Shown here piece by piece: positions 16,719 to 22,609 of a stretch of DNA of 64,000 nt. A program made the translations under genes and the position numbers. This DNA comes from Hyphomicrobiales bacterium (GTDB lineage: Bacteria > Pseudomonadota > Alphaproteobacteria > Rhizobiales > JAJFHB01): contig JAJFHE010000033.1 of the NCBI GenBank assembly GCA_021775755.1, forward strand, positions 62,001-126,000, given 5' to 3'. The first letter of the stretch is position 1; each line of letters opens with the position of its first letter. A model generated the notes under the pieces. It saw only the letters and a list, made by a program, of their open reading frames with translations. It ran no database searches and was not told the DNA's origin.

Positions 16719-17197
16719 TGGGCCGCAAGCGCCACGAGGCCCGCCGACACGGCATCGCCGCAAGCGAAAGCCTCGGCCGCATAAACACGCCCACCGAGCA
16801 AAGCGAGGCAAGCGCGACCGCGCCCTCCGCCAACCGCATAAGCACGCCGACCGAGCAGAGCGAGGCAAGGCCGACCGGCCGTCGTGCCGACGGCACGCGC
16901 CCGCGCAGGCGCGGCAAAGCCGATGCCGCGAGCGACAACCCTTCAAGTCGCATTGTTCCGCGTGAAACAATCACCCGTGAAACATCTATTCCCGACCTGC
17001 CGCCGGTCACGTCCCTGCCGGCCATTTATTCGATCTTCGACGGCGCGATACACATGACCATGGGCCGCCCGCGCCGCGCGCTCGCCGCACTTCTCACCGC
17101 CCGCCGCCACATCAACAACGCCATCCGCCGCTGCCGGCGCCAAGTCGCCCGGGAAACTGTGGCGCGGAGGGATCGAAAACACGGAGACGCACCATGA
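16718..17197 (+). CDS. hypothetical protein with in-frame repeat insertion
   Basis: The 159-residue protein is translationally coupled to the gene before (TGATG) and overlaps the next by 4 bases. Residues 12-72 are encoded by a repeat element and include two near-copies of a short peptide (NTPTEQSEAS and STPTEQSEAR) and the block GTRPRRRGK. The conserved part is probably residues 85-150 (IPDLPPVTSLPAIYSIFDGA, then a basic helix). No function is recognised. The insertion is odd because it keeps the frame, as palindromic elements inside coding genes do in some alphaproteobacteria. Confidence 0.6.
   Translation: MGRKRHEARRHGIAASESLGRINTPTEQSEASATAPSANRISTPTEQSEARPTGRRADGTRPRRRGKADAASDNPSSRIVPRETITRETSIPDLPPVTSLPAIYSIFDGAIHMTMGRPRRALAALLTARRHINNAIRRCRRQVARETVARRDRKHGDAP
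16751..16937. repeat. dispersed repeat element (copy 3, inside a gene)
   Basis: This stretch holds ACCGAGCA(A/G)AGCGAGGCAAG twice, 16791 and 16850, and a block from there to 16920 that matches 10402-10474 in reverse orientation (GCCGTGCC/GGCACG hairpin, GCGCCCGCGCAGGCGCGGC). It begins near CCGCAAGCGA and ends near CCGCGAGCGA. Confidence 0.55.
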
Positions 17198-19335: not shown

Positions 19336-19548
19336 ATGCCCCGCCGCACGACCATAACCGTCGACCGCATCGAGAGCGCCCTGGACAAGGTCGCCTGGTG
19401 CATCGCGTCTTACGGCGACGAGGCCTTGCCCATATACGAGCGCCTCGAGAACGAACGCGACGCCCTGCTCGCGCGCACCTCGGCCCGCGAGCGCGCCCTC
19501 AGGCGCGCGGGAAAAGCCCGGCCGGCACCGGCAAAGCAATCTTCATAA
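19336..19548 (+). CDS. small hypothetical protein
   Basis: The 70-residue basic protein starts at ATG 19336 and ends in the 51-bp repeat copy 1 (its last codons are ATC TTC ATA AGC TGA equivalents). It has no recognised domain (TVDRIESALDKVAWCIASYG, then a basic helix). Before the insertion at 19590 its tail would have overlapped the integrase tail convergently. Confidence 0.55.
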   Translation: MPRRTTITVDRIESALDKVAWCIASYGDEALPIYERLENERDALLARTSARERALRRAGKARPAPAKQSS

Positions 19549-19589
19549 GCTGATCGCGCCGCCACGCCAGCCCGCCGCCCTCGCCATAG
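19539..19589. repeat. 51-bp direct repeat of the integrase 3' end (copy 1)
   Basis: Identical over 51 bp to 21095-21145. Read leftward it encodes YGEGGGLAWRRDQLMKI, the part of the integrase that starts with its catalytic Tyr. The reading continues past it to ALPVPAGLFPRA, an alternative integrase end. Confidence 0.9.
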
Positions 19590-19614
19590 ATCGACCGACG
19601 TTAGATCAATTGAG

Positions 19615-19923
19615 TTAGCAGCCGTTGAATTTTCGACATTGCGCCAGTTGAGCTCTTAGTCTCTCGTTGCACAGCACCCTGCACTGGTGCCGCGCCTCTG
19701 TTGTAGAACGGGTGTCACACAGAATGCTGCAACTTCTTGAATTGGAAAACGCCCGATTCTGACAACTTGCACACGACTCCGCGGCAACACGTAATGGCCG
19801 CACATCATCCGCCTCTCTGGGAATTGATCGGTCCGGATTCACCAAATCCGAGGCAATAGACGAAAGCGGCACAAGCAAAAACATCGCAACGGCAAAATGG
19901 ACAAACAGCAGGCGCATAATCAC
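19615..19923 (-). CDS. secreted cysteine-rich small protein
   Basis: The protein has 102 residues. A hydrophobic signal sequence (MRLLFVHFAVAMFLLVPL) ends at ASD-like residues near 25. The mature part has eight Cys (SCASCQ, CSILC, CRVLC, CRKFNGC), suggesting disulfide folding in the periplasm or outside. No family is recognised. It is AT-richer than the island core and part of the 1.5-kb segment between the 51-bp repeats. Confidence 0.6.
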   Translation of the reverse strand: MIMRLLFVHFAVAMFLLVPLSSIASDLVNPDRSIPREADDVRPLRVAAESCASCQNRAFSNSRSCSILCDTRSTTEARHQCRVLCNERLRAQLAQCRKFNGC

Positions 19924-20026
19924 ACCCCGATAGTTTGGATCCCAGAACGGGAAACAGCTGGTTTGATGTTTGGTCGATGATCACGAGACGCCCCGAAACG
20001 AGTGAGACGCAGGAAGTCCGTCCAGT

Positions 20027-20236
20027 TTAGTTGGTGTCGCGGCGAACGATCATTACCTGACGGCGATCCAACTGAACCTGCAGTACTCTTTCGTCTTTGT
20101 TGCACGCCTCGTAACAGGGCTTTGTGCCCGTCAAGCAACATCTTTTTGGCCCTGCCTCAGCTTCACTCGACCCGATTATTGATTGTCCAAACCCAAATCC
20201 AATTACTGCAAGCACGGCGATAGCTAATTTGGTCAT
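20027..20236 (-). CDS. small exported protein, cysteine-rich
   Basis: The 69-residue protein starts at ATG 20236 (GGAGAAGATA before it). A signal helix (KLAIAVLAVIGFGFGQSI) is followed by a short mature part with CC, C and C. A micro-ORF MLSLWRR just upstream ends in TAA that overlaps the ATG (TAATG), so translation may be coupled. The upstream region has a 36-bp duplicated ribosome-site segment. No family is recognised. Confidence 0.55.
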   Translation of the reverse strand: MTKLAIAVLAVIGFGFGQSIIGSSEAEAGPKRCCLTGTKPCYEACNKDERVLQVQLDRRQVMIVRRDTN

Positions 20237-20604
20237 TATCTTCTCCATAGTGACAACATCTTCTCCGTAGTGGCAACTCGCCGCAAGCGGCGTCACAGTA
20301 ATCAACCAATATATGGTTGATTCTACGTCGACATAAGACTCCGACTAAGTAAGATAATTCCACACTGTGTATGCAAATTGATAGTCTATGTATATTTTGT
20401 ACAATTCAACTCACGAAAACGTGTACAGATACGAACTCGTATCATCGGCATAATATGCTTGGCTTATCTTACCCGATTGACACTTGGACTGATGAACAAG
20501 CATTCGGAGAGTTACTGGTTTGCGAGCACCGATTCATGAATATTATGTCTGAAACGAATTAACTACATTATTGTTAAGGTTGGACTCCAGCACCGAGGCC
20601 TAAT
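20237..20604. other. AT-rich intergenic region with a perfect palindrome
   Basis: No convincing gene lies here. The clear signal is AATCAACCA-ATATA-TGGTTGATT (20300-20322), a perfect 9-bp inverted repeat 64 bases before the 20236 start, similar to CI operator arms but with a 5-base centre. A 63-codon frame at 20371-20562 has no ribosome site. Confidence 0.45.
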
Positions 20605-21021
20605 ATGAAAGCGTCGAAATACAATTTGGCAGTGTTGGCCTTTATAACGATTACCTTTTCTTCGGCAAATTTCTCGCCACTGCCAACTACAGCGTATGCC
20701 GCCCAAATATGCGTGGCCGTGGCAATAGGAAAGAAGCGATATTATTCCGGGAGATGGAGGGCAGTTAAGATAACCGCTCGGAGTCGCCGTTGTGCGACGG
20801 CAAAACGAACCGCCCTATTAAGATGTAGGGTGCATTATGCTCGTTGTAGAGTGGTTGGAGCACACAACAGAAAGTGTGTTGGTATAGGCATCGGTTCCCG
20901 AGGGGCGTGGGCAACGAGGTGGGCCGATGATCGGCTTGAAGCGAGGGCGAACGCAGCTGTAGCTTGCCGCAGGATAAATTGGCGGCGGCAGAACTGCACT
21001 GTGTTTAGCGCGTGCCCCTGA
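20605..21021 (+). CDS. secreted cysteine-rich protein (DUF4189-like)
   Basis: The 138-residue protein has a signal peptide (residues 1-32, ending AYAA) and a mature Arg/Cys-rich domain with regularly spaced Cys and Trp, including CRRINWRRQNC near the end. The pattern ALLRC..., C.VV...C..I... resembles DUF4189 domains, found in secreted proteins. It is the third exported small protein in the segment. It is inferred to be lysogenic-conversion cargo. Confidence 0.6.
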   Translation: MKASKYNLAVLAFITITFSSANFSPLPTTAYAAQICVAVAIGKKRYYSGRWRAVKITARSRRCATAKRTALLRCRVHYARCRVVGAHNRKCVGIGIGSRGAWATRWADDRLEARANAAVACRRINWRRQNCTVFSACP

Positions 21022-21063
21022 AAACAGGGGGACTGCAAACCCCAAAAGTAAACCGCAGTGCTT

Positions 21064-22383
21064 CTAAAAGGTGCAACTATCGAATGGTAGCGTGATCTTC
21101 ATAAGCTGATCGCGCCGCCACGCCAGCCCGCCGCCCTCGCCATAGTCCGGGCGGTCGGTGGCATGCCCCATCAGATGACAGCGCAGCTCATAGTCGAGCC
21201 CGCCCTCTTTCATGCGGTCCTCGAACGCGTGGCGCAGCGAATAGGGCCGGTGCGCCGGCGTCGGCAGCAATCCGTTGTTGCGGAAGAATTTCGACAAGAG
21301 CGCCGACAGCGTGCCCTCGTTGTCGCGGTAGCGCGGGAAGCCGCCGGGCGCGCGGCGCAACGCCTCGAGCGACACACCGACAAGGGGAATATCGCGCCGT
21401 GACGATCGCGTCTTGACCTCGCGGCCGTCGGGGCGGATGCGGATATGCGGCACCTCGCCATCGAGCACGATCGTTGTTTCGGTGAGATTCGCGATTTCCG
21501 ACGGCCGGCACCCGGTCTCGACCATGGCGTAAACGATGTGCCGCGCCTCCTCGTTCAGCCCGGCGAGCGCGCCAGGCGCGATGATCTTCTCGACAATCCA
21601 CTCCACCGGGAACGGCGGCACGTCGCTCTCCTGGGCGCCGGAGAACGCCAGGTCGCGAAACGGGTTCACCCGGTCGCGCTCGCCAACGTGCCGGTAGAAG
21701 TCGCCATAGAGCTTGCGCACATTGCCGAAGCCGCGCTTTGCCGTGGCGCTGGCGATGCCCTTGGAGCCATCCGCCGGCATCAGGCGGCCGACATACCACT
21801 TGTGGAAGGCGAGCGCATGATCGCGCGTGATCTCGCTCATGACCAGGTCGCCCTCGAGCGCGATAAAATCGCCGATGCCGTGGCGCTTGGCGTTCTTGAA
21901 CTTGCGCCATTGCCCGGCCGACTTCTGGCGCCGTTCCTCGATCGCGATTTCGTCGAAATAGATCTCGAGCGCCTGGCTGAGTTTCACCGCCGGACGCGGC
22001 GCCGTGCCGAGCACCGCCTCCGCCTCGGCGCGCGCCGGTTTGCCGGGCAGCTGCTCGACACGGTCGAGAAGCGCCGTCAGCGGCGCGTCCGCGGCGATCT
22101 GCGAGACCGGCTGGTAGGAGAGGTTAAGGGCGCGGGCGCGCAACACAGCGGCCTGATAGCGCGCCTTGGCGCGGTCGTGATCGCCCGACACCAGCGACGA
22201 CCAGTATTGATTGTCCGCCTGCTCGAACACGTCGCGCTTCATCCGCGCCGCCTCGATCGACTGTGTCTTGAGCGTCTGGCGTACCATGCCGCGGCGGTCG
22301 ACATGCTCGTATTCGGCCGGCACCCGGCGCACGTAATGCCACCATTCGCCACGCCGGACGAGATAGCGGTCCTCCTCCGACAC
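21064..22383 (-). CDS. tyrosine recombinase/integrase of the element
   Basis: The 439-residue protein starts at GTG 22383 after GGGGAGG. An N-terminal Arm-DNA-binding domain precedes a core-binding region (ALEIYFDEIAIEERR near 138) and a catalytic domain with Arg293 (ETGCRPSEI), Lys324 region, Arg384 (YSLRHAF), His407 (MGHATD) and Tyr414 (DYGEGG). The usual His before box II Arg is a Tyr (YSLR). It integrates the element into the tRNA-Glu gene just upstream, whose 3' end faces it. Its last residues follow a 51-bp repeat that also occurs at 19539. Confidence 0.95.
   Translation of the reverse strand: MSEEDRYLVRRGEWWHYVRRVPAEYEHVDRRGMVRQTLKTQSIEAARMKRDVFEQADNQYWSSLVSGDHDRAKARYQAAVLRARALNLSYQPVSQIAADAPLTALLDRVEQLPGKPARAEAEAVLGTAPRPAVKLSQALEIYFDEIAIEERRQKSAGQWRKFKNAKRHGIGDFIALEGDLVMSEITRDHALAFHKWYVGRLMPADGSKGIASATAKRGFGNVRKLYGDFYRHVGERDRVNPFRDLAFSGAQESDVPPFPVEWIVEKIIAPGALAGLNEEARHIVYAMVETGCRPSEIANLTETTIVLDGEVPHIRIRPDGREVKTRSSRRDIPLVGVSLEALRRAPGGFPRYRDNEGTLSALLSKFFRNNGLLPTPAHRPYSLRHAFEDRMKEGGLDYELRCHLMGHATDRPDYGEGGGLAWRRDQLMKITLPFDSCTF
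21095..21145. repeat. 51-bp direct repeat of the integrase 3' end (copy 2)
   Basis: The functional copy inside the integrase gene, identical to 19539-19589. Between the two lies the AT-richer segment with three secreted proteins. Confidence 0.9.
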
Positions 22384-22402
22384 GCCCGCCCTCCCCGTTT
22401 TT

Positions 22403-22436
22403 GTTACACAAACTGTTACACAAATTGTTACACAAA
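22403..22436. repeat. three GTTACACAAA direct repeats upstream of the integrase
   Basis: GTTACACAAA occurs at 22403, 22415 and 22427 with an exact 12-bp period, between the integrase start and the attachment side of tRNA-Glu. They could be integrase arm sites or an operator for the integrase promoter. Confidence 0.55.
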
Positions 22437-22533: not shown

Positions 22534-22609
22534 TGGCGCCCCCAAGGGGAATCGAACCCCTGTTTCCGGCGTGAGAGGCCGGCGTCCTAGGCCGCTAGAC
22601 GATGGGGGC
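22534..22609 (-). tRNA. tRNA-Glu (anticodon CTC)
   Basis: The 76-base cloverleaf has acceptor GCCCCCA/TGGGGGC, anticodon arm CCGGC-CTCTCAC-GCCGG with CTC in the loop, T-arm AGGGG-TTCGATT-CCCCT and an encoded CCA. The 3' end points at the integrase, so its 3' half is the likely attachment core; a second copy of it is expected left of the window. Confidence 0.95.

Follow-up and report, generated by a model that had tools for sequence, protein, structure and literature searches.

The 3′ end of a tyrosine integrase gene in a Hyphomicrobiales genome (contig JAJFHE010000033.1, positions 62,001 to 126,000, a stretch of 64,000 nucleotides hereafter called the window and numbered from its first letter) is followed by a small AT-rich segment framed by an exact direct repeat. 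The segment is one occupied instance of a site that lies between integrases of this kind and a small convergent gene, that stands empty in many related elements, and that in others holds varied cargo. We propose, with a probability of about 0.6, that this site is a prophage cargo hotspot filled through recombination between phages, in which a crossover falls in the 3′ coding end of the integrase gene and the overlap between integrase and convergent gene comes to be duplicated.

The repeat and the two integrase tails

The features on which the argument rests are the following.

19336-19548, plus strand: conserved convergent gene, 70 amino acids, unnamed family; its stop codon (19546-19548) lies within the left repeat copy
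19499-19538, minus strand: remainder of the displaced integrase tail (ALPVPAGLFPRA and stop)
19539-19589, minus strand: left repeat copy, first part of the displaced integrase tail
19590-21094, no strand: cargo segment, 49% GC (guanine plus cytosine), with no recombinase among its three open reading frames (ORFs)
19615-19917, minus strand: exported-looking protein, 100 amino acids, 8 cysteines, orphan
20027-20248, minus strand: exported-looking protein, 73 amino acids, 4 cysteines, orphan
20605-21021, plus strand: exported-looking protein, 138 amino acids, 8 cysteines, weak likeness to DUF4189 proteins
21064-21094, minus strand: integrase tail beyond the repeat (TLPFDSCTF and stop), present on the integrase side only
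21095-21145, minus strand: right repeat copy, part of the integrase ORF, running from one base 5′ of the tyrosine codon into the I codon of QLMKI
21064-22383, minus strand: tyrosine integrase gene, intact, with tail TLPFDSCTF, a DUF6538 N-terminus and a phage integrase catalytic domain

The two repeat copies agree over all 51 bp without a mismatch, lie in the same orientation at a spacing of 1556 bp, and are the sole matches to this sequence in the 5.47-Mb genome with up to three mismatches allowed, a length and uniqueness that together rule out a chance origin. The identity reported in a first-pass annotation of this DNA is thereby confirmed, and the repeat frames no unrelated DNA elsewhere in the host. 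The same annotation had the repeat begin at the codon of the catalytic tyrosine; on the minus strand it starts one base ahead of the tyrosine codon in MGHATDRPDY, a residue that is invariant in 16 of 16 aligned integrases, the window's included, and that is the nucleophile in this family. This starting point is probably accidental, since three other measured cases, described below, do not begin there. Beyond the repeat the tails diverge, with QLMKI followed by TLPFDSCTF in the integrase and by ALPVPAGLFPRA in the left copy. Many related integrases share the C-terminus K-I-x-LPFD-x-x-I-V; by this comparison TLPFDSCTF is an ordinary ending for the family and the integrase ORF is uninterrupted, so that the right copy does rebuild the C-terminus, as had been claimed, and the product is predicted to be active. 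The protein matches DUF6538 (PF20172, E 8e-7, bit score over the cut-off), the phage integrase family (PF00589, E 6e-6, bit score slightly under the cut-off) and a PHROG integrase (E 3e-25). An integrase ending in ALPVPAGLFPRA without the segment, which the annotation had suggested looking for, was absent from the tails compared, a set assembled without a dedicated search. Because the left copy holds the stop codon of the convergent gene and the right copy belongs to the integrase, we read the repeat as a duplicated overlap of these two genes.

Between the copies the GC content falls to 49%, as against 67% in the integrase gene, and all three ORFs have hydrophobic N-termini; the earlier description of an AT-rich segment with three exported, cysteine-rich proteins thus holds for composition and cysteine counts, while export itself is a prediction. 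The 138-residue protein has weak matches, themselves of exported appearance, in 7 of 149 other genomes (E 2e-6 to 7e-4), and the three of these seven that were scanned all carry DUF4189 (E 9e-25 to 3e-20); the same scan found no DUF4189 match in the window protein itself. The 73- and 100-residue proteins found only themselves across the 150 genomes searched, a viral-contig search returned no relatives for two of the three ORFs, and a plasmid search returned none for one. None of the three has a Pfam match, and hence no recombinase or transposase was seen among them; the one ORF scanned with PADLOC gave no match. From their position and context, we would guess that these proteins could act at the cell envelope to keep out superinfecting phages. 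The start of the second cargo gene is overlapped by a 20-bp unit in adjacent near-copies (20238-20277, 90% identical).

A direct repeat around AT-rich DNA resembles the target duplication left by ordinary transposition, or could stem from tandem duplication. Target duplications are usually far shorter than 51 bp, the three cargo ORFs include no transposase, the integrase-side tail is family-like, and the genome holds no second copy of the cargo proteins; we therefore regard an origin of this kind as very improbable. Tandem duplication in particular was rejected, the shared sequence being only 51 bp. Among inverted repeats, none of the 25 pairs shown, of 46 found, links the two ends of the segment.

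Empty and occupied sites beside related integrases

Relatives of the integrase were drawn from nine genome records and from viral contigs, and the DNA 3′ of each gene was compared. The survey set consists of loci L033-L134 and the window (103 in all), later extended by L174-L264; L003-L032 and L135-L163, for which only short flanks were at hand, were set aside. Before counting we removed 18 loci identical over 1.2 kb, 66 repeat fetches, L054 (another copy of the window integrase) and L105, whose integrase is broken by an early end of the reading frame. In some loci a conserved flank directly adjoins the integrase end and in others it lies 1-3 kb away. The conserved element is a small gene of about 70-80 amino acids, with relatives such as L049:3793-4038 on the minus strand. 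The first profile of this gene included the window's own copy, and the window was retested with a profile lacking it: built from 76 other loci, this finds 19336-19548 as the sole match among 1033 window ORFs (E 2e-16), and a control of reversed ORFs gave 0 matches in 12,261. Six members scanned against PHROG fell into no family, five scanned with Pfam gave no convincing match, and the window's copy has a match in neither database. The gene is possibly an integration or excision factor.

In the first survey the small gene was present in 78 of 84 distinct integrase-query loci, with 55 sites empty, 20 occupied, two with the gene on the opposite strand and one with a broken integrase. A later integrase search added seven distinct loci, all seven with the small gene (six empty, one occupied), which brings the total to 85 of 91, with 61 empty and 21 occupied. 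This later round yielded 23 new loci, and the 16 fetched by the small gene, in which it is present by construction, were counted apart: 14 are empty and two occupied. Searching with the small gene alone recovered 38 loci, many on contigs already in the set, and an integrase of this kind was convergent with it in 36. Cargo at occupied sites spans 0.3-6 kb between the two genes. Where the site is empty the genes overlap at their 3′ ends, in 51 of 55 cases in the first survey and six of six in the later integrase search; across all searches the convergent gene ends inside the integrase ORF in 70 of 75 empty sites.

Clustering the 84 integrases at 90% identity gives 53 clusters, 14 of which include occupied and 32 empty sites; at 70% identity there are 36 clusters, eight with occupied sites, 25 with empty ones and four with both. 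Most of the 20 cargoes in the first survey differ from one another, 5 of 190 pairs sharing DNA at E < 1e-5. The expectation that other cargo would be found at the same place is thus borne out in related elements.

Displaced tails and the route of cargo entry

At each occupied site we looked past the cargo for a second copy of the tail of that site's integrase, with matching fractions derived from alignment scores and with reversed or complemented tails as the control (best score 15.0). Clear displaced tails were found in the window (51/51 bp), in L044 (40/44 bp) and in L072 (36/42 bp), and those of L044 and L072 accompany cargo insertions different from the window's. A trace in L047 (18/19 bp) rests on the own-tail scan and a comparison of flanks, the region covered by a later scan having missed it, and L045 and L049 keep about 15 bp of tail. 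In both the window and L044, the convergent gene has its stop codon within the displaced tail. Relative to the tyrosine codon, the repeated interval runs from -1 to 50 in the window, 37 to 81 in L044, 58 to 100 in L072 and 60 to 79 in L047.

These intervals bear on the possibility that the cargo is a small cassette without an integrase of its own, for which the integrase 3′ end is the attachment site and a tyrosine recombinase, possibly this very integrase, provides mobility in trans, and which restores the gene end as elements in tRNA genes and icd do. Direct repeats around the cargo, an integrase-side tail that differs from the displaced one, and varied cargo at the same gene end would all be expected of such a cassette. 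The intervals of the window and L072, however, have no core in common; a fixed attachment site is accordingly disfavoured because the intervals differ, with the proviso that later erosion of the repeats could mimic such a difference and hide a shared core. The three window ORFs include no recombinase, and the far junction in L049 adjoins a remnant of older cargo, which leaves a cassette of this kind distinctly unlikely. The first-pass annotation had seen the footprint of an insertion into the integrase gene that leaves it working. An insertion at the 3′ end with an intact ORF is retained here; an element moving itself into the gene finds no support, given the lack of a recombinase among the three cargo ORFs, the differing intervals, and a left copy that is better read as the retained 3′ end of the convergent gene.

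The exchange of a tail together with cargo is best seen in L049. Compared with L045, its integrase body is mostly 90-100% alike, identity drops to 67% in the last 60 nucleotides, and the cargo is different. All three of its cargo proteins have L068 counterparts at 93% identity, against only 54% for the two integrases, and DNA identity between L049 and L068 rises from 56% in the integrase body through 67-77% in the last 60 nucleotides to 80% in the cargo. L049 further retains, immediately ahead of the convergent gene, a stretch that corresponds to the terminal part of the Fic cargo of L045, as if the old cargo had been replaced by new. On these alignments, a foreign integrase tail and its cargo arrived in L049 together. 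A comparable drop marks L072, in which the last 60 nucleotides are 33-50% identical to those of its empty-site relatives L078 and L069, against about 83% over much of the body. L044, for which empty-site relatives likewise exist, shows no such drop against L042 and L034, and its tail is therefore from its own lineage.

Taken together, these observations suggest the following route. In the usual empty state, integrase and small convergent gene overlap at their 3′ ends, and cargo would enter through recombination with another phage. A first crossover would take place in the conserved coding block at the integrase 3′ end, the incoming cargo bringing a replacement integrase tail; at a second, non-homologous junction, the far end of the cargo would be joined inside the old tail. 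The overlap would then be present twice, one copy finishing the integrase and the other the convergent gene, and it must exist twice because convergent overlapping genes cannot otherwise separate with both ends unchanged. We infer the order of the crossovers, selection on the convergent gene, and the donor and former state of the window from this model. The displaced tail is not obligatory, since most occupied sites lack one, and such sites show that other gene endings are tolerated.

Alternatively, integrase and cargo may have come from one phage and been joined by a single illegitimate crossover to the integrase tail of a second, for example through deletion between tandem prophages at the same tRNA gene, the 51-bp identity then reflecting shared ancestry. 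One unusual junction would suffice, the joint travel of cargo and tail would be explained, and the window sequence alone does not separate this course of events from entry by two junctions. In L049, however, foreign sequence in the integrase is confined to the tail, the body being that of the recipient lineage, and 51 perfect bp followed immediately by unrelated tails are awkward for two different integrases; we consider a single crossover unlikely.

It is important to note what weighs against the proposed route of phage recombination with a duplicated overlap. The second junction lacks an explanation, and exact identity over 51 bp demands either a recent event or a near-identical donor. The integrase of the window has no close relative, the best being 50% identical with none closer in 385 genomes of the class, so that neither its empty state nor its cargo donor has been seen. 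With a tail only 67-77% like that of L049, L068 is not a close match to the donor in that exchange. Among 23 occupied sites, three have a clear tail, three a short trace and 17 none (14 in the first survey and three in the second); the L047 trace, with a score of 16.5, barely exceeds the control maximum, and that of L045 scores only 14 against a control of 12.

More speculatively, the integrase 3′ coding end may be a general docking sequence for small defence cassettes that carry integrase tails, with entry into any related prophage, by recombination at conserved active-site codons, leaving the integrase unharmed and the two flanking tails allowing exit. We hold this generalization to be doubtful.

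Cargo content, surroundings and relation to known systems

Outside the window, part of the cargo ORFs was scanned with PADLOC (L133, L188, L193 and L212 being left out), and matches at E < 1e-10 were obtained for 10 of the 29 proteins tested, spread over 8 of the 18 occupied loci. As a control, the largest ORF on the far side of the convergent gene was taken from 10 of 19 loci; none of the 10 fell below 1e-10, with two weaker matches (capH, 3.6e-8, in L062; PDC-M64B, 1e-3, in L126). The matching loci carry the following.

L044 and L045 cargo: Fic proteins
L046 cargo: dGTPase
L048 cargo: dCTP deaminase
L049 and L068 cargo: beta protein and IrrE-like peptidase, the peptidase scanned in L049 only
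L051 cargo: two candidate defence proteins
L061 cargo: methyltransferase only

In both L044 and L045 a small antitoxin-like gene precedes Fic, presumably of the VbhA type. The first cargo genes of L072 (1535-2278) and L047 (1536-2288) are distantly related (24% identity, E 4e-13) in differing integrase lineages; neither has a PHROG match, that of L072 has no Pfam or PADLOC match either, and they are candidates for an unknown defence gene. Varied cargo thus lies at one place between conserved phage genes and includes known or candidate defence families, as is characteristic of antiviral hotspots.

The window probably covers a prophage, or a related element, at its tRNA end, with one further feature at the integrase start.

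22534-22609, minus strand: tRNA-Glu gene adjoining the integrase start

This tRNA gene is the probable attachment site. Its last 26 bp occur just once in the genome when up to three mismatches are allowed, and a second copy marking the far end of the element was accordingly rejected, 14- to 16-mers of the tRNA 3′ end occurring nowhere else in the window. Further right, ORF reading without a family search gives RluD-like and heat-shock-sigma-factor-like genes; to the left lie a CII-like activator, a phage repressor, primase genes and a HerA-like ATPase. Three adjoining TTGTTACACAAA-like copies lie immediately upstream of the integrase start (22401-22436) and are possibly arm-type binding sites of the integrase. 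A 57-bp unit forms a tandem pair at 16777-16890 (77% identical). In L044 (4167-4532) and the matching region of L033, L034 and L041, a gene past the convergent gene contains a tandem array of about 27 bp per unit (GGAATASGDG-like), and matches in multiple registers suggest that the array recurs in related prophages.

Phages exchange modules at short conserved sequences on gene borders, and the site described here is alike in that a conserved coding block at the module border would serve as the crossover point and cargo and border piece move together; it is unlike in that the border is the active-site end of an integrase, whose overlap with the adjacent gene is present twice. Integrative elements also enter the 3′ ends of tRNA genes and icd, restoring the gene end and leaving a displaced copy as here, whereas the window insert contains no recombinase that we could find and no core is common to all cases. 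Our literature search, consisting mostly of titles and abstract openings, turned up no recognisable description of the integrase and convergent gene pair or of its footprint.

P4-like satellites and prophages of Vibrionaceae and Bacillus are known to carry defence hotspots beside integrases (Rousset et al. 2022, PMC9122126). How defence genes enter and leave such hotspots is an open question, for which that paper speculates on cos ends and homologous recombination and leaves the recombination route to further experiments. Compared with the hotspots described there, the present site differs in its neighbours, a DUF6538-type integrase and a convergent gene of unnamed family that mostly overlap when nothing lies between them, and in the displaced integrase tail that some of the insertions leave behind; the traces point to the integrase 3′ coding end. 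The site thereby offers readable scars, namely an integrase tail travelling with its cargo, a displaced tail that supplies the end of the adjacent gene, and a leftover of earlier cargo, and the convergent gene provides a marker for mining this hotspot for new defence genes, perhaps including the orphan exported-looking proteins of the window.

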